From NCBI RefSeq assembly GCF_003313325.1, contig NZ_QMHQ01000001.1:744001-808000 (forward strand): a stretch of 64,000 nt of DNA, read 5' to 3'. This document shows positions 1-10,038 of this stretch, piece after piece. A program made the translations under genes and the position numbers. The notes below the pieces were generated by a model. The model was not told where the DNA came from. It saw only the letters and a list, made by a program, of their open reading frames with translations, and made no database searches. Each line of letters opens with the position of its first letter. Position 1 is the first letter of the stretch. Source of the DNA: Pedobacter namyangjuensis (GTDB taxonomy: Bacteria > Bacteroidota > Bacteroidia > Sphingobacteriales > Sphingobacteriaceae).

Positions 1-237
1 TAGCTGAAATATTTATTTGGGAGGTTAGGTCATTACGGTTGATTTTCTAACTAAATCTTATAACTTTTCAAACTCATTTAACAGAGTCACTAGATATGAT
101 TGTTATTTATTAGACGATAGCACCGCATATTTAATCTATAAATAAACAGAAAGTCATACAAACTTAATTTGATAGATTAAAAGAGTTAACAAAATTAAAA
201 GACTAGACTAAAAATTTTTATAGCATGAAAATATAAA

Positions 238-1098
238 ATGACTTTGAAATATAATTTAAAACGTGATTTTTCTGTACTAATGTCTGTCTATGAGAGAGAA
301 TCGCCCGCGAATCTAAATTCTGCGCTTCAGAGTGTATTGATCAACCAAACCGTCAAGCCAAAACAGGTGGTACTAGTAGTAGACGGACCGATCGGTATGA
401 AATTAGGCGAAGTAATTAGTTATTATGAAAATAAATTTAAGGATCAATTAAAGGTTTTGAGCCTAGATAAAAATTATGGCTTAGGTTCTGCGTTACGGAA
501 AGGACTATTAGAATGTGAGGCTAGCATAGTTGCCCGAATGGATACTGATGACATATCATTGCCAACCAGATTTGAAAAACAATTTGCTTTTTTGGAAAAT
601 AACTTGCAATATGATGTAGTTGGTTGTAACATAGAAGAATTCAATATAGTTCCCGGAGATTTAAAAAGGTTTAAATATACTCATGAACACCACGAAGAAC
701 TTATAAAAGCAATCAAGTTAAGGAGTCCATTTAACCATCCCTCAATAATGTTCAGAAAAGCGAGTATTTTAAAAGCGGGTAATTATGATGGTGACTTACC
801 TCTCTTTGAGGATTATTCCTTATTTTTAAAACTATGGCAATCCGGATCCAGATTTTACAATTTACAGGAAGTCTTATTGTATTTCAGGGTTGGAGTTGGA
901 ATTGAGACTATAAAGCGCAGGAGTGGCTTACATTATTTGAAAAAAGAATGGGATTTTGTTAAATATGCCAAAAGAGTTGATGCGTTTACTTCAATTGAAG
1001 TTTTGAAGTACGTAATTTTAAAATTTCCAATAAGATTGCTGCCACCGAAAATAGTTTTATTTATTTACAATAGATTTCTACGTAAAACTCAAAGATAA
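238..1098 (+). CDS. Family 2 glycosyltransferase
   Basis: Predicted GT-A fold glycosyltransferase that transfers a sugar from a nucleotide-sugar donor during surface polysaccharide assembly at the cytoplasmic face of the inner membrane. Residues 11-50 form the usual GT2 start (SVLMSVYER, then VVLVVDG), and the metal/donor-binding DxD-type motif is MDTDD at residues 101-105. The 286-residue length is normal for small GT2 enzymes. It ends 2 bases before the epimerase gene, so the two are probably cotranscribed. The sugar specificity cannot be read from the sequence. The 237 bases upstream are AT-rich and hold nothing I recognise. Confidence 0.9.
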   Translation: MTLKYNLKRDFSVLMSVYERESPANLNSALQSVLINQTVKPKQVVLVVDGPIGMKLGEVISYYENKFKDQLKVLSLDKNYGLGSALRKGLLECEASIVARMDTDDISLPTRFEKQFAFLENNLQYDVVGCNIEEFNIVPGDLKRFKYTHEHHEELIKAIKLRSPFNHPSIMFRKASILKAGNYDGDLPLFEDYSLFLKLWQSGSRFYNLQEVLLYFRVGVGIETIKRRSGLHYLKKEWDFVKYAKRVDAFTSIEVLKYVILKFPIRLLPPKIVLFIYNRFLRKTQR

Positions 1099-1100
1099 TT

Positions 1101-2012
1101 ATGGAGGTATATTTCAGTGGTATTAGCGGTTTTGTTGGTCGAAATCTGATTTCATATTTCGAGGATAAGAATATTGTCGTTAATAGCATTTCTAGGAAAG
1201 ATGTATTGATGATTGAATACCTATTGCCAAAAAATGCCGACGCTATGATACACCTAGCTGGTAAAGCCCATGACTTAAAAAAAATATCTGATCCTGATGA
1301 GTACTACCAAGTAAATTATGAATTAACTAAAATATTATACGATGCTTTTTTGAAATCGAATGCGAAGAAGTTCATATTCATGAGTTCAGTTAAAGCATCA
1401 GCAGATGTCGTAGATGGAATTTTAACGGAAGATAATATACCTAATCCCATTACAGATTATGGTAAGTCTAAATTAATGGCTGAGCAATATATTCAAAATC
1501 AGGCATTACCTGAAGGAAAATCTTATTACATTTTACGTCCTTGTATGATTCATGGGCCTGGTAATAAAGGAAACTTAAATTTATTATATAAATTTGTGCA
1601 GAAAGGTATCCCTTACCCCCTAGCATCGTTCGAAAATAAACGCTCTTTTTTAAGTATTGAAAATTTGTGTTTTCTAATTGCTAATTTATTGCAGAAAGAT
1701 ATTCCATCAGGAATTTATAATGTAGCAGATGATAAAACATTGTCTACTAGCGAGGTGGTTAAAATACTGGCTAATTCGGTTAATAAACAAGCCAGGCTAT
1801 GGAAAATTCCTAGTAGTTTAATTCATAGTTTAGCTAAAATTGGGGACGCATTGAGGTTGCCTTTGAATTCTGAGCGCCTAAACAAACTTACTGAAAATTA
1901 CGTAGTAAGCAACAAAAAATTAAAGCAAGCACTAAATTTAGAACTGCCGATTTCAACCGAACAAGGATTGGCACTTACTGCACGATCTTTTAAAAATTCA
2001 AAAGGCCGCTAA
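1101..2012 (+). CDS. NAD-dependent epimerase/dehydratase (extended SDR, WbpV-like)
   Basis: Nucleotide-sugar epimerase or dehydratase of the extended short-chain dehydrogenase family. The NAD-binding GxxGxxG is at residues 7-13 (GISGFVG) and the catalytic YxxxK at residues 120-124 (YGKSK), with the preceding catalytic serine in FMSSVKAS. Length (303) suits the family. In many O-antigen loci this gene type stands directly before an undecaprenyl-phosphate sugar-phosphate transferase and a FlaA1/WbpM dehydratase; here those two genes lie 14.5 kb downstream (16497 and 17549). The substrate is unknown, probably a UDP-HexNAc derivative. Confidence 0.88.
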   Translation: MEVYFSGISGFVGRNLISYFEDKNIVVNSISRKDVLMIEYLLPKNADAMIHLAGKAHDLKKISDPDEYYQVNYELTKILYDAFLKSNAKKFIFMSSVKASADVVDGILTEDNIPNPITDYGKSKLMAEQYIQNQALPEGKSYYILRPCMIHGPGNKGNLNLLYKFVQKGIPYPLASFENKRSFLSIENLCFLIANLLQKDIPSGIYNVADDKTLSTSEVVKILANSVNKQARLWKIPSSLIHSLAKIGDALRLPLNSERLNKLTENYVVSNKKLKQALNLELPISTEQGLALTARSFKNSKGR

Positions 2013-2191
2013 CTAAATCATATTTCGGAGACGAGCACAAATAATTTATCACAAATCTTATACGTTTTTAGCATAAGTATGGTGCTAAACCTATAAGGTT
2101 TTAAATCTCAACAGAGATATTAAACAATGAAACTACGCTGTTAAAGGTTATTTTATTTTAACTTCTAAGATAATTTCGAAGTTGTTATTGA

Positions 2192-2434
2192 CTATATATC
2201 TTTAAATTTAGAGAAATCTAGAAGTTCATCAACACTAACATCTAAAGCTTTAGATAGGTTCACCAAAATGTAAGCGGTTGGATTAGCACCTTGTTTTTCA
2301 TACCTATTAATAAACTGTTTGTCCTTTCCATCTAGAATTGCAGCTAATTCGGTTTGTTCTAATCCCTTTTTTACCCGGAGTTCTAATATTCTTTTCCCTA
2401 ACTGTTTTCTAAATAATTTAACATCATCTTTCAT
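2192..2434 (-). CDS. XRE-family helix-turn-helix regulator
   Basis: Small DNA-binding protein of about 80 residues. The HTH_3 fold covers most of it: RILELRVKKGLEQTELAAIL, then QFINRYEKQGANPT and a C-terminal VSVDELLDF typical of XRE repressors. I use the ATG at 2434; an in-frame TTG at 2458 would add eight residues but is less likely. It is transcribed away from a consensus promoter (2477-2506) that drives the opposite strand into a structured region, so it may be the local repressor of that transcript. That link is inference from the divergent layout. Confidence 0.8.
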   Translation of the reverse strand: MKDDVKLFRKQLGKRILELRVKKGLEQTELAAILDGKDKQFINRYEKQGANPTAYILVNLSKALDVSVDELLDFSKFKDI

Positions 2435-2476
2435 TCTTGCAAACTCAATAAATAACAAAAAAGATGGTCAACAAAT

Positions 2477-2506
2477 TTGTTTACTATATCTTTTTTATTA
2501 TATTTG
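2477..2506 (+). promoter_or_regulatory. Bacteroidota-type promoter, TTG-N19-TATATTTG
   Basis: TTG at 2477-2479 and TATATTTG at 2499-2506, spaced by 19 bases, match the Bacteroidota -33/-7 consensus (TTG and TAnnTTTG). Transcription should start near 2512 and run rightward into the hairpin-rich segment starting at 2531. It lies in the gap divergent from the XRE gene. Confidence 0.6.
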
Positions 2507-2511
2507 ATTTA

Positions 2512-2750
2512 TATAAAAAGGTATTAATAAGAGTCTTGTGGTTGCATTTTCTGACGCCGCTAACGCAAGACAGCAGATTAATGCCCATATCTATGTGTAG
2601 TTGTATATATTTGTACATCGAAATAGATGTGGGGCTGCTGTAAACCCATGTTAGCGTAAGGCGTCAGAAACTTTAAGCAGCCGTGGTATGTAGCCCCACA
2701 TGTATTATGTGGCTAGCAGCCAAAGCAAGACTCGTATAATCCATACGAGC
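2512..2750 (+). ncRNA. Candidate structured RNA or structured leader
   Basis: This segment folds into nested helices: 2531-2538 with 2726-2733 (8 bp, perfect); 2548-2564 with 2650-2655 plus 2660-2670 (17 bp, one 4-base bulge); 2571-2576 with 2635-2640 (6 bp); 2584-2594 with 2623-2633 (11 bp, one G-U). A 3' hairpin lies at 2691-2715 and a last perfect one at 2731-2749. Two alternative pairings exist: 2627-2636 is also perfectly complementary to 2692-2701, and 2731-2733 is shared by the outer helix and the last hairpin. A consensus promoter ends 25 bases before the first helix. It matches no RNA family I know. It could instead be a DNA-level palindromic mobile element. Confidence 0.45.
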
Positions 2751-2751
2751 A

Positions 2752-2901
2752 ATGAAAAAACTAATCCAATATGTAAGTGAAAATAATTGTCTTTTAAGGG
2801 CAATAACCCTGCAAGGTTTTGTTTTTTCAGATCCCAATCATCTTTATAGTATTTACCCTTTTAATAGGCTTTACGCATTAAAGCCGAAGAATCCTGTATA
2901 G
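2752..2901 (+). CDS. Possible 49-residue peptide following the structured leader
   Basis: An ATG two bases after the last hairpin opens a 49-codon frame starting MKKLIQYVSENN and ending in TAG at 2899-2901. The peptide has a basic start and several aromatic residues, with no signal peptide and no recognisable motif. It is the first ORF downstream of the promoter at 2477-2506. It could be a real small protein, a leader peptide, or the remnant of a longer gene; chance cannot be excluded at this length. Confidence 0.25.
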   Translation: MKKLIQYVSENNCLLRAITLQGFVFSDPNHLYSIYPFNRLYALKPKNPV

Positions 2902-3784
2902 CAAATAATAAGCGGGAGCCTAAATTTAGGTTAATAAAATGGTTAATAATCAGCCTTAGCTTACTGGATAGTAATAGGGCTTGGCTTCCGTTTCCGCCTT
3001 TTGGCGGTATTTGAATGGATGGTTTAGATGAGTTGTCTGTTGCCTGTTGTCTGTTTTGGGTTGCGAGTTACCATTCTGGAGTTTAATTAGTTGGTGAAAG
3101 TTGAAAAATGCTTCATAATAGCATTGTTTTTAGCTTAGCTGGTGCTGTGTCTAATTGGTGAAAGAAAAGTGGAGATTTCTCCCTGTGGTTCGAAATGACG
3201 GAGGATGAGCAATGACATTGCTAAGCAAGGAAGGACGGCCTAGCATATCACCGAAGCAGAAAGCAACAAACAGTTTTGCAATATCGTCCAAGTTGCTACA
3301 ACCAAGTAAGAAAGCAACGTCTGTGTAAGGGAACAGAAGTAGGAGACGTCTTTTTCTTACGCAAAGAAGCTGTTGTTAGCTTTATGCGAGGGAATTATGC
3401 CAGCCTTGATCTTTTGTTTCTTTTCTATCAAGAGAAAAGAAAGAGCCATTCGCTGGCTAAGCGAGGAAAGGTTGAGCCCGGGGGTAATGATGAGATGATA
3501 GATATCTCTTTATGGTGCCCTTCCGATGGCTATAGGAACAAGCTGAGCATGACGGATTTTTGATGTTGTTACTGAAACATCCTTGAAGATATCTCCCCGG
3601 ATATTCCGGGCAAGTTATCACTACGCTCCTTGATACGACGGCGCAAGGGCAACTAATGCCACAAAACAGATTCAAACCATCATCAGTAAACCAATTCCAT
3701 ACCATTTTAAAAAACAACGATTTATGATCGTAAGGGCATCGCTATGCCCAAAAATTCTAATAACCAAACCAAAACAAACGACCA
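2902..3784. other. Gene-poor gap with intergenic repeat fragments
   Basis: No convincing gene. The stretch contains fragments typical of dispersed Bacteroidota intergenic repeats: a segment around 3172-3203 ending in TTCGAAATGACGG, another around 3502-3562 ending in GAGCATGACGG, and an inverted repeat of TTTCTTTTCT with AGAAAAGAAA near 3418-3442. A short perfect hairpin (GGGCAT/ATGCCC, 3734-3749) sits about 35 bases before the susC-like start and would be in its leader. ORFs of 86-95 codons here have no protein-like features. Confidence 0.6.
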
Positions 3785-6700
3785 ATGAAAAAATATATTT
3801 ACCTCATATTAAGCATGCAACTCTGTATTTATGTGGCAGGGGCGCAAGTTAAACTCAAGGGTAGGGTAGTGGATGCCCAAGGGCAGGATCCCTTGGGAGG
3901 CGCCATTATCAAAATAGTTAAACCAGCACAAACAATAGTTAGCGATAACGATGGTTATTTTGAGCTAAACCTGCCAAATGGCGAGTACCAATTTCAGGTG
4001 CAGTACTTAGGCTACGGAGTTAGAAACCTGAGTTTAAAGATACCCTCAAACGAACCACTACTCATAAAACTCTATGCTAATACCAGCGAATTGCAGGAAG
4101 TGAAAATTGTTAGCACAGGATATCAAAAACTGCCTAAAGAGCGTGCAACGGGAAGTTTTGTAGTAATAGATAGCAGTATGTTAAATAGGCAACAGGGTAT
4201 GAACCCGCTAGGTAGGTTAGATGGGATAGCGCCTGGGCTTTTGTACGATAATAGGCGACAGGAAAAAAAAATACAAATCAGGGGTTTATACACCCTTAAC
4301 GAAGCCGTTGCCAAACCACTGATTGTGTTAGATAATTTTCCTTTTGAAGGAGATATCAACGATATAAATCCAAATGATATTGCGAACATCGTAGTATTAA
4401 AAGACGCTGCTGCTGCTTCTATCTGGGGAGCTAGAGCGGGTAACGGAGTAATTGTAATCAGTACCAAAATGGCAAAGTCCAATCAGCCAACCCGTGTAAA
4501 TTACAGCTTTAATATTAGTAGGGCTGGCAAACCAGAACTTGCAAGTGTAAATATCATTCCTAGTAGCGATTATATAGAGCTGGAGAAATTTCTTTTTAGC
4601 AAGGGGCACCGTTTTGCCGATACCGCCAATAGGCTACAACCAGCTTTTACGCCTGCCTACGAACTGCTGTTTAGGCAACGTAGTGGTCTCATCTCTGCTA
4701 CGGAAGCAAATGCGCAATTAGAGCAAATGAAAAATTTAGATGTTAGAAATGACTATTTAAAACATTATTACACTGCAACAGTAACCCAACAGCATGCATT
4801 AAATATAAGTGGTGGCGCAAAACAGCACAGCTATTTTTACTCAATGGGTTACGATGCTAACAATACAAATATGGTAGGCAATAGCAACCGTCGACTTAGC
4901 CTTAGGCTAAATAACAACATTAATATTAACAGTAAGCTGTTGCTAAGGCTAAATGTTACATACGTGCGCCAGCATTATACCAAGAATAATCCAGGCGGAT
5001 ATGGTTCTTTAAATAGTAATGGTAGGCAATTATATCCTTATGCCAGTTTTACTGATGTAGCGGGCAAGGAAGTTCCTTTAGATTTTTACCATCGTAAGGG
5101 TTTTACAGATACATTGGGTAGGGGTAGGCTCCCAGATATGAAATATTGGCCGTTATCAGAACTGGAAGCTATGGATCGAGGCGAGAAAAAGCAGTTTTTC
5201 TCTGGCGAGGTGGGTGTAAATTACAAATTGTTAAAAGGATTGGATGTAGACTTGAAATACTTATTGCAACAAAGTAATAGTACGGAAGAGGATATACAGG
5301 GGCTAGACTTGTTCAACACTAGAAAGATTGTGACTCAATATGCACAAGTAAGAACAACGGGAGTATTTTATCCGGTGCCTAGAGCTTCCATTTTAGATCG
5401 GCAGTATGCAACATCCTTAAACCAAGGGTTCAGAGCCCAACTAAACCTAAATCAAACTTGGGCAAACCACAGTATAAATGCTATAATAGGTGCAGAGGCC
5501 AGGCAATTGCAACAACAGAGCGAAAGCACAAGGATTTATGGATATGATGATAAACTGAATATAGTTGCAGTTGACCATGTAAATAACTACCCTACTATTT
5601 TTGGGGCCAACACCACCATTCCCCTAGGCAGTGGTTTGGCCGCTATGTTAGACAGAAATATCTCAATTTATGGTAATGTTGCCTATGTTTACAAAGACAG
5701 GTATGTGTTCAGTGCCAGTGCCAGAAAAGACGCTTCAAACCTTTTTGGGGTAAACTTTAACCAAAAATGGAAACCTTTATGGTCGGCAGGTTTTAAATGG
5801 CGTCTATCGGAAGAACCATTCTATCACAGCAATTTATTGCCGCAACTAAGCTTAAGGGCAAGTTATGGCTTTAGCGGAAACATAGATCCCAGCGTAAGCG
5901 CCCTTACCATTATGGTTTACAATCCAGCAAATGCTCAAATTACGAATACAGCCTTTGCGGGCGTAAATGGCGCTCCAAATCCAAACTTGAGATGGGAAGA
6001 AGTTCGTACACTTAATTTGGCGGTAGATTTTGAACTTGCGAACGGAAGGCTGAGTGGCAGTTTGGAACATTATTATAAAAAATCTAAAGACGTAATTGGC
6101 ACACAGGCCTTAAATCCAACCACAGGTCTGGGATCCTATAAAACCAATTCCGCAGATTTAAAGGGTAGTGGCATAGAGTTGATCTTAAGAGCTAGTTTTA
6201 TAAGGCAAAAAAACTTTGTTTGGCAGGGTAATCTTTCATTCAGTTACGAAAATTATAAAGTAACAAAATACATGGCAGAAGTAGTGGGTAACAATAGCTA
6301 CGTGAGCGATGGTTCTAGTATCTCGCCTATTGTTGGCTATAATCCCTATTTATTGGTTAGTAATAGATGGGCAGGCTTGGATCCAAATAATGGAGATCCA
6401 CAGGGCTATGTTAACGGACAAGTATCTAAAGACTATATACAATTGCTTAGAAACCCTTTTGTCAATCAGCAGGTACACGGACCAGCCTTACCCGCTAGTT
6501 TTGGCAATTTTTTACAGGAAATTAAAATCGGCTCAATAAGTCTTTCAGCAAATATCACCTACAGGTTAGGTTATTATGTGAGGCGTTCTACCATTTCATA
6601 CGTACCGTTGTTTGCCAATGGAGCTATGCATCTAGATTATTTAAAGCGTTGGCAAAATCCTGGAGATGAACAGCACACCTATATTCCTTCGTTAAACTAC

Positions 6701-6961
6701 CCGGCGGTTGAGCAACGAGATGCTTTTTTTAGGGGCGCTGAAGTACATGTTCTAAATGGCAGTCATATCCGCCTTTCGGATATAAGAATGGGTTATCGGC
6801 TTTCGCCAAAATGGGGACTTAAATCATTAGAGTTTTATGCCTTGGCCAATCAATTAAACGTACTATTATGGACCGCCAACAAAGCAAGTGTAGACCCTGA
6901 ATACAGCAATGGGCTGTTACCTACAGTAAATTATAATTTAGGTGTTAAAGTAGAATTTTAA
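3785..6961 (+). CDS. SusC/RagA-family TonB-linked outer-membrane transporter
   Basis: Outer-membrane beta-barrel that imports a ligand captured with its SusD partner, powered by TonB-ExbBD. The signal peptide spans about residues 1-20. A carboxypeptidase-regulatory-like domain follows at about 22-105 ([20 protein letters not shown]), then a TonB-box-like [10 protein letters not shown] and the plug domain to about 230 with the family signature NGVIVISTK; the rest is barrel, ending in the aromatic C-terminal residue expected for outer-membrane insertion (VKVEF). Length 1058 is typical. Its stop overlaps the susD-like start (TAATG), so the two are translationally coupled. The TlpA-like third gene suggests a peptide or metal-related ligand rather than a glycan; no glycoside hydrolase is nearby. 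Confidence 0.96.
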
Positions 6962-8322
6962 TGGATATAATAATGAAAAATATAACAATAATAATCTTAC
7001 TGGCCATCATTGGCCTATGTAGTTCTTGCGAGAAATTTCTGGAGGCAAAGCCTAACCAAAAGCTAGCAGTGCCAGCTACGGCGCATGACTTGAGATTAAT
7101 GCTCGACACCTACAGCATTATAAACAATGGGATGCCGATTACTGTAGAAACCATGTCGGATAACTACTACGTAACCAATACTGATTTAAGTGGTTTGGCT
7201 AATCAGCTGATGAGAAATCTTTACACCTGGCAGAGAGATGAAACGGCAAACAGCGAATGGACAAATGTTTATAAGAGCATCTATTATACAAATGTAGTGT
7301 TAGATGAGTGGAAGAAATTAGGTCTAGAAGGAGGACAAGAAGCTGCTGCGGTGAAAGGATCAGCAATGGCCTTACAGGCTTTTTACTACTATATGCTGGC
7401 TCAGTTATTTGCGGTGCCCTACCAAGCTAGTGCAGATGCACCATGGGGATTGTCGCTTAGATATGATGCTGATTTTAGCAAAGCGATAACGAGAGCGAGT
7501 GTACATGAAACATACAATACCATTATTCAGTTATTGAAACAATCATTGCCTTTGCTACCTGCACAAGAGCCTTTAAAAACACGCCCTACAAAAGCTATGG
7601 CATATGGTCTCTTGGCAAGAACTTACTTGCTTACCAAAAACTATGCTCAAGCACAACTTTATGCTGATTCAGCCCTGCTGTATAATAACAGACTCATTAA
7701 TTTCAATACCTTAAATGCCAATGCTAATGCACCGTTCGCCAGATTTAATGGAGAAGTAGTTTTCCATGCAAGAACCAGTACAACGCCAATTCTAAGTCCA
7801 GCGATAGCGAAGATAGACAGTAACCTTTATCGTAGTTATGATAAAGATGATTTACGCAAAACGATGTACTTTAAGCTTAATGCCAATGGCACGGTGTCTT
7901 TTAAAGGAGATTACGATGGTAGCGGCACCAGCTCGGGTTATGTATTCTGGGGTTTAGTAACAGACGAACTCTACCTGATAAGGGCAGAATGTTTGGCCAG
8001 ACAAGGCATGTATGTTTTGGCTATGGAAACGCTTAATTACTTGTTGATTACCCGATGGAAGTCTGGAAGTTTCATTGCTCTTAGTGCTGCCAACGCCGAA
8101 GATGCGTTAAACATCATCCTTCGAGAACGTCGAAAAGAACTACTATTCAGAGGAACACGATGGTCTGATCTTAGACGTTTGCGAGATGAACCTCAGGTAG
8201 TAGAGCCGGTCCGTGTAGTTAATGGTGATACAATTAGGTTAATGTCAAATAGTAACAAATATACCCTCCCAATTCCCTACACAATAATTAACCAGAGCGA
8301 AATGGCTCAAAATCCTTTATAA
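6961..8322 (+). CDS. SusD/RagB-family nutrient-binding lipoprotein
   Basis: Surface-exposed lipoprotein that caps the SusC-like barrel and helps capture the ligand. The N-terminus is a lipoprotein signal with lipobox CSSC (cysteine about residue 23), followed by EKFLEAKPNQK, the standard SusD opening. The middle is rich in TPR-like helices (MALQAFYYYMLAQLF), and the C-terminal region carries the family motif ERRKELLFRGTRWSDLRRL. The 453-residue length is on the short side. An alternative ATG at 6973 gives an equally good signal peptide. One base separates the stop from the next gene. Confidence 0.95.
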   Translation: MDIIMKNITIIILLAIIGLCSSCEKFLEAKPNQKLAVPATAHDLRLMLDTYSIINNGMPITVETMSDNYYVTNTDLSGLANQLMRNLYTWQRDETANSEWTNVYKSIYYTNVVLDEWKKLGLEGGQEAAAVKGSAMALQAFYYYMLAQLFAVPYQASADAPWGLSLRYDADFSKAITRASVHETYNTIIQLLKQSLPLLPAQEPLKTRPTKAMAYGLLARTYLLTKNYAQAQLYADSALLYNNRLINFNTLNANANAPFARFNGEVVFHARTSTTPILSPAIAKIDSNLYRSYDKDDLRKTMYFKLNANGTVSFKGDYDGSGTSSGYVFWGLVTDELYLIRAECLARQGMYVLAMETLNYLLITRWKSGSFIALSAANAEDALNIILRERRKELLFRGTRWSDLRRLRDEPQVVEPVRVVNGDTIRLMSNSNKYTLPIPYTIINQSEMAQNPL

Positions 8323-9573
8323 ATGATGAAAAAAGTAATATTGATAAGCCTATTTTTGTGTCTTGCAAGAATGGGCTACGGACAGCTTGCCAATTTGCAT
8401 ATCGGAGACACTGTTCCGCCAACTAAATTAACAGGTTTTTATAACGATAGCGCAAAGGAATTAAATACAGATTCGCTTAGGGGTAAAATGGTCATTTTTA
8501 GCTTTTGGTCTACTTACTGTAGTAGCTGTATTAGCGCAATGCCGAAATTGCAGAGCCTACAGCAACAATTTAAAGACAGTTTGGTTGTTGTTTTGGTAAC
8601 CCAGCAACCCCGCAGTATTGTTGATGCGTTTTGGAAGTACAACCATATTACTAAAAAAATAACTTTGCCAAATTTAGTTGGGGATATTGTACTTGCGAAG
8701 CATTTTGCGCATTTAGGTGTACCCTATGAAGTTTGGATAGATGTTAACGGAGTGGTAAAAGGGCTAACTACAGCCCAATATGTAAATGAAAAAAATATAA
8801 GGGCAGTGTTAAGAAATGAAAAAGTAGACTGGCCGGTTAGCCAAATAAAACCTAAACTTAAGGATGGATACCTTTTTAACATAGCGCCCCGGCAACAATC
8901 ATTAGGTAGTGCTAGTTACTACACAGTTCTTTCACCGAGCATAACAGGCTTAAAACTTAACCATGGTTTTAGTTTTCTGACAGATACCATAAAAGGCGTA
9001 AATCACTTTCGGGCTATCAACTTTGCGATTTTAGACTTTTATCGATTTGCCATGGCCGAAGAGCCAATATTTAATTCGTCTAGAAATAGGTTTGTTCTTA
9101 ACGTGGGCGATAGTTCCAGATACTTTTACCAGAAAGACAAGGTTTATAGGGAACAATGGATAAGGCAAAATGCTTTTTGCTATGAAAGTACTTATCCAAT
9201 TGCCTTAAATAAAACTGAATTTAGAACATCGATACGTGCGGAGCTAGATAGGGTTTTTAAACTTAAGAGTGCAGTAGTTGAGAAAGAAATGTTTTGTTGG
9301 GTGATTACCAAGTCTGGGCATGCTAGGGATATAGGAAAAGCTAAGAACGGTACTGTTTATAAAAGCATAGGCGAGTTGTTGTTAGCTTTAAATTATAGGA
9401 TTGAAAACCCACCAGTTTTAGATGAAACAAACCAAAAGAATAGTATATCTATTGTATTAAAAGGCAACACGACTGATTTTAATCAGTTGAACAAGGATTT
9501 AGCTGGTTATGGCTTTCAATTAGAAAAGGCTTGGAGAAATATCAAGGTACTTACTATAGATGAAATAAAGTAA
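8323..9573 (+). CDS. TlpA-like thioredoxin-fold protein, secreted
   Basis: Periplasmic thiol-disulfide oxidoreductase-like protein. After a signal peptide (about residues 1-20, ending GYGQ), an AhpC/TSA-Redoxin-type thioredoxin domain carries the redox motif CSSC at residues 66-69 in FWSTYCSSCISAMP. The 230-residue C-terminal half is a less conserved extension of the kind seen in TlpA proteins encoded beside SusC/SusD genes of Sphingobacteriaceae. It follows the susD-like gene immediately and is followed by a strong terminator at 9585-9612, so it is the last gene of the operon. Its substrate is unknown. Confidence 0.88.
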   Translation: MMKKVILISLFLCLARMGYGQLANLHIGDTVPPTKLTGFYNDSAKELNTDSLRGKMVIFSFWSTYCSSCISAMPKLQSLQQQFKDSLVVVLVTQQPRSIVDAFWKYNHITKKITLPNLVGDIVLAKHFAHLGVPYEVWIDVNGVVKGLTTAQYVNEKNIRAVLRNEKVDWPVSQIKPKLKDGYLFNIAPRQQSLGSASYYTVLSPSITGLKLNHGFSFLTDTIKGVNHFRAINFAILDFYRFAMAEEPIFNSSRNRFVLNVGDSSRYFYQKDKVYREQWIRQNAFCYESTYPIALNKTEFRTSIRAELDRVFKLKSAVVEKEMFCWVITKSGHARDIGKAKNGTVYKSIGELLLALNYRIENPPVLDETNQKNSISIVLKGNTTDFNQLNKDLAGYGFQLEKAWRNIKVLTIDEIK

Positions 9574-9584
9574 TGGTTAAAAAA

Positions 9585-9612
9585 GAAGTGTTGGCGGCTG
9601 AGCCAACACTTC
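9585..9612 (+). terminator. Intrinsic terminator of the susCD-tlpA operon
   Basis: Perfect 11-bp stem GAAGTGTTGGC/GCCAACACTTC with a 6-base loop, starting 11 bases after the tlpA-like stop codon. Only a modest T tract follows on either side. It lies between convergent genes and may serve both. Confidence 0.75.
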
Positions 9613-9693
9613 AACTTTACAGAGGTAGATACAGCACCCTAATTGTAGGATTTTATTATCCTAATTTTAATTTTAGGCTTTCGCATCAACAAG

Positions 9694-10038
9694 TTAGTTC
9701 TTCTCTGAAATATAAAGTGGGTCTAAACTTGGGCTTGGCGCAAAGTAATTGTCGATTGCGGTAGCTACCGAACCAGAAATGTCTGGTTGTCCAGAAACCA
9801 CGTCTGCACGGATGGCACAAAGATCTTGCTCTCCCTCACATGGTGGTAGCTCTTCGGCATCCAGCATGGTGTAATTTGATGGTTGTTTAGCATCAGTAGC
9901 ATTGTTTGGATGATCACTTTGCGTATAGATGAACCATCTGGTTTCTTTTTTCGCTTTAAAAGCGCTTGTGCTAAATGCCAGACCGAACGCTACTACCAGC
10001 GCTGCAAGGCCTAAACCTGCTTTTTTTAAATTTTTCAT
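9694..10038 (-). CDS. DUF6520-family small exported protein
   Basis: A 114-residue protein with an N-terminal signal or anchor (MKNLKKAGLGLAALVVAFGL, then AFSTSAF) and a polar body with two cysteines (PPCEGEQDLCAIRADV). This combination is what the DUF6520 family looks like in Pedobacter-type genomes, where copies occur beside SusC/SusD and TlpA genes. Function is unknown; the location suggests it belongs functionally to the neighbouring transporter operon although it is transcribed convergently. Gene call good, function open. Confidence 0.75.
   Translation of the reverse strand: MKNLKKAGLGLAALVVAFGLAFSTSAFKAKKETRWFIYTQSDHPNNATDAKQPSNYTMLDAEELPPCEGEQDLCAIRADVVSGQPDISGSVATAIDNYFAPSPSLDPLYISEKN

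Follow-up and report, generated by a model that had tools for sequence, protein, structure and literature searches.

A conserved family of folded leader RNAs with two mutually exclusive pairings, linked to XRE genes and leader-peptide ORFs in Sphingobacteriaceae

In the window, the 64,000-nucleotide stretch of Pedobacter namyangjuensis DNA analysed here, an XRE-type regulator gene and a 49-codon open reading frame (ORF) diverge from a promoter-like sequence, and a strongly self-complementary stretch lies in front of the ORF. The question is whether this stretch acts as an RNA, what such an RNA may control, and whether its neighbours belong to it. A sequence-only reading had reported a promoter, nested helices, bases common to the outer helix (P1) and the terminal hairpin (P10), namely 2731-2733, the 49-codon ORF and the divergent XRE gene, all of which are present at the positions given (Table 1). 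The promoter is of the Bacteroidota type, TTTG-N19-TATATTTG. The 17-bp helix of that reading corresponds to 2550-2564 with 2650-2668 and carries a GUAA bulge, its pairing of 2627-2636 with 2692-2701 sits at the core of an alternative helix that is longer (2623-2638 with 2690-2705), and a second exclusive pairing, P1', was absent from its list. The plus strand folds with z = -7.15, none of 200 shuffled sequences being equally stable; the reverse strand folds well too, but less so (z = -4.64; 0 of 200 shuffles).

Table 1. Features of the R1 locus in window coordinates.
Feature	Position	Strand	Basis or remark
Promoter: TTTG 2476-2479, 19 nt, TATATTTG 2499-2506	2476-2506	+	sequence
R1 switch RNA (switching inferred), including terminal hairpin	2529-2749	+	covariance model, covariation, G-U versus A-C strand bias
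P1 5' strand GAGTCTTG	2531-2538	+	partner 2726-2733 (P1, outer helix, 8 bp)
P1'	2533-2540 with 2564-2571	+	overlaps P1 5' strand
P2 5' strand	2540-2545	+	partner 2677-2682; both-side changes in 6 of 6 pairs
P3 5' strand	2550-2558	+	partner 2660-2668; both-side changes in 3 of 9 pairs
P4 5' strand	2559-2564	+	partner 2650-2655; both-side changes in 6 of 6 pairs
P5	CAGCAG 2571-2576 / CTGCTG 2635-2640	+	100% of cells paired
P6 CCCATATCTAT	2584-2594/2623-2633	+	87.1% of cells paired; weakest helix
Middle strand	2623-2640	+	pairs 5' (P5/P6) or 3' with 2690-2705 (P9)
P8 5' strand	2646-2649	+	partner 2683-2686; crosses P2-P4; 98.4% of cells paired
P9 3' strand	2690-2705	+	P9: 94.7% of cells paired, both-side changes in 7 of 16 pairs
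P1 3' strand CAAGACTC	2726-2733	+	P1-strand counts across 100 copies
Terminal hairpin P10	2731-2737/2743-2749	+	ends 2 nt before ATG 2752
XRE/HTH regulator gene (TTG 2458 start, 88 aa; ATG 2434 start, 80 aa)	2192-2458	-	ORF; Pfam HTH_3 5.1e-11
Operator-like palindrome GTCAACAAATTTGTTTAC over the -33 TTTG	2467-2484		recurs exactly before other R1 copies; operator role inferred
49-aa putative leader peptide ORF ending PFNRLYALKPKNPV	2752-2901	+	purifying selection on peptide family
Terminator-like stem	2910-2993 (2910-2920/2983-2993)	+	starts 8 nt after stop codon
SusC-like 3785-6961, SusD-like 6961-8322, Redoxin/AhpC-TSA (TlpA-like) 8323-9573	3785-9573	+	Pfam

The element, here called R1, is a conserved and previously unlisted RNA family of folded leaders, carried by soil-living bacteria of the Pedobacter group. 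Searching by DNA sequence revealed a second copy in the window's genome (82% identical) and matches in 36 of 99 genomes, the own genome included, one of them being a 28-base promoter match outside the family. Alignment A1 holds 46 copies aligned with MAFFT without structure (55 first elements minus L064 and the eight near-identical L029, L053, L054, L057 and L060-L063), and the covariance model built on it scores 190.1 bits over window positions 2529-2706. Run against the own genome with E up to 0.1, the model returned two copies; with E up to 1e-4 it matched 93 of 145 genomes of the genus, with as many as 15 copies per genome in the genus search, and 136 of 300 genomes of the order, in 8 of 17 genera. 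A phylum sample gave 4 matching genomes of 395 at E up to 0.001, and none of the four lies outside the family of the window. An exact pattern of the R1 core occurred in 26 stretches, from many Pedobacter, one Mucilaginibacter and three bins named only Sphingobacteriaceae, Sphingobacteriales or Bacteroidetes, and matched no viral contig; the DNA search of phage and plasmid collections gave no match.

Rfam returned no match in window 1-10000 at E up to 5, and only two, far below the cut-off, in 15 and 8 further loci. No account of the element was found in open-access papers, the only literature searched, and the Pedo-repair RNA (PMC2864571) was the sole related item. R1 is thus a well-supported addition to the known RNA families that Rfam 15 lacks, and the DNA and covariance-model searches that the sequence-only reading had proposed yield a family with covarying helices. 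Its remark that no RNA family with this layout was known holds in so far as Rfam has no match, but the layout, though not the sequence, is similar in Pedo-repair (RF01715) and in R2, a further unlisted family from this genus. The case that would have refuted it, copies scattered without linked promoter and ORF, was not found: the genome holds two copies at E up to 0.1, and of 100 loci 90 have a divergent ORF and 78 the hairpin at the start codon.

Both helix sets of R1 are supported in A1. Of 2142 cells in the long-range fold (state II; P2-P7 and P8), 94.4% are paired, and 29 of its 48 pairs show changes on both sides (218 cells); for the alternative set (state I; P1', P8 and P9) the figures are 95.7% of 1262 cells and 14 of 28 pairs (79 cells). 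None of 500 shuffles reached either result, and slid controls dropped to 30-46% paired for both sets. Since P1' overlaps the 5' strand of P1, P5/P6 and P9 use one middle strand, and P8 crosses P2-P4, the two sets are mutually exclusive, and the alternative pairings noticed earlier are conserved and covary across the 46 copies. Judged by eye, a distant GAGTCTCG subfamily forms the same alternatives with different bases; it was found by the R1 model and is supportive rather than an independent test. By nearest-neighbour energies for 40 elements (6 of the 46 A1 rows stayed outside the comparison), state II is more stable than state I by a mean of 12.0 kcal/mol (range -12.5 to +28.3), so that state I needs kinetics, a ligand or a protein. 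An H-type pseudoknot of P8/P9 with P2-P4 was rejected on geometry, no loop nucleotide being left between A1 columns 169 and 170, which is reasoning and not a calculation. Over all helices, G-U outnumbers A-C on the plus strand (215 versus 34 of 3221 cells), as it does in eight of the nine helices, the exception being P3 (G-U in 1 cell, A-C in 4); this excess indicates that R1 acts as an RNA of the plus strand.

The surroundings of R1 were counted over 100 loci, a set that omits L029, L031-L033, L045, L047, L048, L053, L055, L057, L058, L060-L063 and repeat fetches of the same place, and 13 of the 55 first elements therefore lie outside these counts. A TANNTT[TC]G box occurs at most 50 nt upstream in 52 copies, and a looser form in 73. 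A divergent ORF, counted if it had 55 codons or more and began less than 260 bp upstream, is present at 90 copies and missing by these criteria at 10; among the 90, HTH_3 was matched by 65 and HTH_26 by 55 (overlapping sets, E up to 0.01), and some are not HTH proteins (that of L040 is DUF2007-like). The divergent proteins are very dissimilar, with a mean column identity of 12%. With up to 2 mismatches, the window matches GTCAACAAATTTGTTTAC at 2467-2484 alone, a site read on both strands (0.02 matches expected), and the exact 18-mer lies upstream of the R1 core in L084, L085, L129, L166, L171 and L179. The XRE proteins of L084, L085 and L129 resemble that of the window, though L084 and L085 carry a 430-aa cargo protein, and among the clusters compared the palindrome over the -33 box varies with XRE type. 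From sequence, XRE gene and operator seem to be exchanged as a pair around an RNA that stays in place, which suggests, by inference only, repression of the leader promoter.

At the other end of the leader, the 3' strand of P1 is found with 7 or 8 of 8 pairs in 97 of the 100 copies (shuffled mean 56.4) and in its strict form (8 of 8, at least 7 of them Watson-Crick) in 58 (shuffled mean 1.0). A P10 hairpin using the end of this strand is present in 89 copies (shuffled mean 27.1) and has at least 7 bp in 77 (shuffled 3.8). In 78 of the 89 P10-bearing copies an ATG follows within 8 nt (shuffled mean 4.6); 11 copies lack P10, and 11 more have it without a near ATG. P10 and the near ATG occur together before first ORFs of different types, short (38 of 47), HEPN-sized (14 of 17) and 430-aa (8 of 8), an arrangement that speaks for cis-acting control of initiation.

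A short ORF ending in KPKNP[VEI], IIKSPV or similar was found at 45 loci; the motif was written after the ORFs had been viewed, and its frequency is no test. Of 88 peptide pairs at 50-98.5% identity, 87 were scored (L117-L118, without synonymous change, was left out), and pN/pS was below 1 in all of them, with a median of 0.42; over the last 14 codons of 29 KPKNP peptides, pS was 0.84 and pN 0.14. Both sets were picked by protein similarity, which lowers pN. On these sequence comparisons the 49-aa ORF looks coding, with translation not shown. The peptides differ in hydrophobicity and conserve the C-terminus, and a conserved leader peptide with a nearly fixed ending is a candidate arrest peptide, a type of control little studied in the phylum. 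On the proposed check of whether the 49-residue peptide is kept beside the RNA, it recurs under selection, and other first ORFs (HEPN, 430-aa protein, sigma factor) can replace it. In the own genome a KPKNP-type ending occurs at four places, the window's directly behind R1 and the other three at a distance of some 0.4 to 1.4 kb behind a leader (one R1 copy, two R2 copies) whose directly following ORF ends in IIKSPV, IRSPS or ICSPT. A 90-aa protein at L128:2688-2957 ends in IIKSPE, as leader peptides do, and the ending can hence be joined to a longer protein.

Behind the stop codon, a GC-rich stem followed by T was found at 31 of the 45 peptide ORFs, against a shuffled mean of 3.2 and a maximum of 6 in 20 shuffles; in 30 of these the distance from stop to stem is 5-15 nt and in one it is 37 nt, and 14 peptides lack the stem. 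The loops are long, that of the window measuring 62 nt, unlike classical terminators, and termination has not been shown.

Farther downstream, Pfam matched the proteins of the window (Plug 5.2e-10, SusD-like_3 3.2e-26, Redoxin 5.3e-8), and the SusC-SusD-TlpA genes are the probable regulated operon. Co-transcription of peptide and SusC is uncertain because 0.9 kb of repeat-like DNA separates them in the window. This stretch (2902-3784) holds a GGGCATCGCTATGCCC palindrome at 3734-3749; similar palindromes elsewhere, judged by eye, sit in signal-peptide codons (MALLCLNF) of SusC/TlpA genes. Over the 100 loci, with flanks of 0.9-3.2 kb, the same-strand downstream genes include SusC and/or TlpA at 54, HEPN at 23, the 430-aa protein without HEPN at 8, an ECF sigma factor at 5 and none of these at 10. 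The second commonest cargo consists of 298-aa HEPN proteins (PF05168; L075:3246-4139 and relatives, alignment A4), in which R-x3-H is invariant in 8 aligned members and the N-terminal part has no match. The 430-aa family (L066:3256-4548, L074:775-2076) often stands behind R1, alone or after a HEPN protein; among the proteins scanned it had no Pfam, NCBIfam or PADLOC match, and its AlphaFold model is poor (pLDDT 39). Its N-terminal third resembles, by eye, a SWIM domain whose metal ligands have been lost.

Several other explanations of R1 can be weighed against these data. The several copies per genome and their varied neighbours could point to a mobile palindromic or ssDNA element (a MITE or attC-like site) without RNA function, a reading largely refuted, and to us scarcely credible, given the G-U bias of one strand, the linked promoter, XRE gene and ORF, and the lack of any copy in the phage, plasmid and viral-contig searches made. 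A mobile palindrome, a retron, an attC site and a MITE were set aside on the strand-specific G-U pairs and the same linked features, and also since no reverse transcriptase was recognised among the larger ORFs of window 1-9573, as judged from the ORF list and Pfam scans of seven window proteins; at L075, about 2.7 to 0.8 kb upstream of the RNA, a 609-aa ORF resembles, by eye, a group II intron reverse transcriptase. R1 might also be a trans-acting small RNA whose gene merely neighbours the XRE and peptide genes, for which strong sequence conservation, a promoter of its own and the terminator-like stem could speak; that P10 adjoins the AUG so often, across peptide, HEPN and 430-aa cargo, leaves this reading little room.

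Two further possibilities are a riboswitch and a toxin mRNA. As a riboswitch, R1 would sense a ligand, and a small molecule connected with the SusC/TlpA cargo would stabilise one fold; the two exclusive folds and the unpaired stretches conserved in the alignment (UGUAA, the GUAA bulge and AAACUUUA) would suit this, but ligand binding is hypothetical and the unrelated first ORFs (peptide, HEPN, 430-aa protein, sigma factor) hardly fit one metabolite, and we regard it as unlikely. We think it quite improbable that R1 heads a type I toxin-like mRNA, in which a metastable leader would, on the pattern of hok or AapA3, delay translation of a toxic product (the peptide or HEPN) and an antisense RNA would have escaped notice. 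Metastable and stable folds, a small peptide and HEPN cargo would agree with it, and the AapA3 and timP mRNAs follow a similar logic (PMC6733600; PMC11228461), but the peptides vary in hydrophobicity with a conserved C-terminus, and SusC/TlpA genes lie downstream in more than half of the loci.

On balance, we think it probable that R1 is an XRE-repressed, cis-acting switch leader, here combined with leader-peptide attenuation. The RNA family, its strand, both pairing sets, the position of P10 at the AUG, selection on the peptide, the spacing of the stem and the linked XRE gene are computed results; we infer repression, attenuation, the switch as such and which of its states is off (I) and which is on (II), and there are no expression data. 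The XRE protein of the divergent gene would probably bind the -33 palindrome and repress the leader promoter, an inference from the way in which the operator follows the XRE type. After transcription, the leader could adopt either of two folds. In state I, local hairpins (P1', P8/P9 and P10) would form, with P10 adjoining the start codon; in state II, one long rod from P1 to P7 would form, and P1 would capture the CUC needed by P10, so that, as we propose, P10 opens and the start codon is freed. The fold formed would then determine translation of the first ORF. A ribosome on the last codons of the peptide may cover the stem that starts 8 nt on, and transcription would continue into SusC-SusD-TlpA. 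The sequence-only reading had taken competing helices, XRE gene, promoter and peptide ORF as one unit, and they do recur together in other species, with switching still inferred.

Known systems resemble this locus in parts. Ribosome-mediated attenuators are represented by the trp and TnaC types. Like these, the R1 locus has a selected short ORF ending just before a terminator-like stem; unlike them, it has an upstream switch RNA and an XRE protein that are inferred to gate the peptide, it has no run of regulatory codons, and arrest has not been shown. In hok mRNA, mutually exclusive folds control initiation. They do so too in the type I toxin mRNAs AapA3 and timP (PMC6733600; PMC11228461). R1 shares the mutually exclusive folds with these mRNAs and differs from them in that no antitoxin RNA is known and the cargo is mostly not toxin-like.

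A nearer relative in layout is R2, the second unlisted structured leader family of the genus (G000:C12:784535-784845, minus strand, and C1:1115054-1115359, plus strand; loci L187-L213), which occurs in 45 of 144 genus genomes and has a 35-aa ORF with endings such as KNVICSPS. Among the 25 loci fetched, a divergent HTH-like ORF is present at 24, an ORF ending in SPS or SPT at 24 and TlpA at 20 (the HTH-like ORFs were judged by eye, and only that of L212, outside the 25, was scanned), and the AUG lies at 325-336 nt in 24. The R2 middle strand is paired with its 5' partner in 95.7 and 99.4% of cells (two helices), with both-side changes in only 2 of 14 pairs, and with its 3' partner in 98.6% of cells, with such changes in 7 of 16 pairs. 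R2 is like R1 in layout and in the partner exchange of the middle strand, unlike it in sequence and helix lengths, and the R1 model finds no R2 copy in the own genome.

The closest known RNA is the Pedo-repair motif, which Rfam gives as cis-regulatory and of unknown function (RF01715; PMC2864571) and which has a different sequence and a similar layout: it comes from Pedobacter and has 211 positions, its middle strand has a 3' partner, and one hairpin resembles P1'. Over 18 loci, this 3' alternative with P1' is paired in 97.8% of 445 cells and the 5' alternative in 75.3%, with as many both-side pairs in 109 of 500 shuffles, and Rfam's own structure line includes that weak 5' alternative. The Pedo-repair loci L214-L233 have this alternative 3' partner, which is missing from the Rfam structure line, and a hairpin that contains the start codon. 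By our own reading, not by Rfam's structure line, R1 matches the Pedo-repair-style layout, being a leader of about 211 nt from Pedobacter in which the middle strand has an alternative partner on the 3' side and which has a start-codon hairpin. R1 does not score over the RF01715 gathering cut-off of 150 bits; even with E up to 10, RF01715 has no match in the own genome, and it matches 10 of 144 genus genomes, one of them over the cut-off. Like R1, the weak members L219-L221 are accompanied by TlpA and/or SusC and by a divergent HTH-like ORF, and in L219 and L220 a called ORF ends in LIICAPE; the strong members in G047, unlike R1, have no obvious divergent XRE gene.

We tentatively suggest, as a possibility short of an established one, that R1, R2 and Pedo-repair, three families distinct in sequence, represent a single undescribed class of Sphingobacteriaceae control cassettes, in which an exchangeable XRE repressor would be combined with an RNA timer that works by strand exchange and lets the first start codon open only once the RNA has refolded, and with an arrest-type leader peptide (ending in KPKNPV, IIKSPV or ICSPS) that gates a terminator before surface-uptake (SusC/SusD/TlpA) or HEPN effector operons. 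The comparison suggests a single rule, strand exchange ending at a start-codon hairpin, kept across families of different sequence, and it gives the Pedo-repair RNA, whose function is unknown, a context and a likely mechanism.
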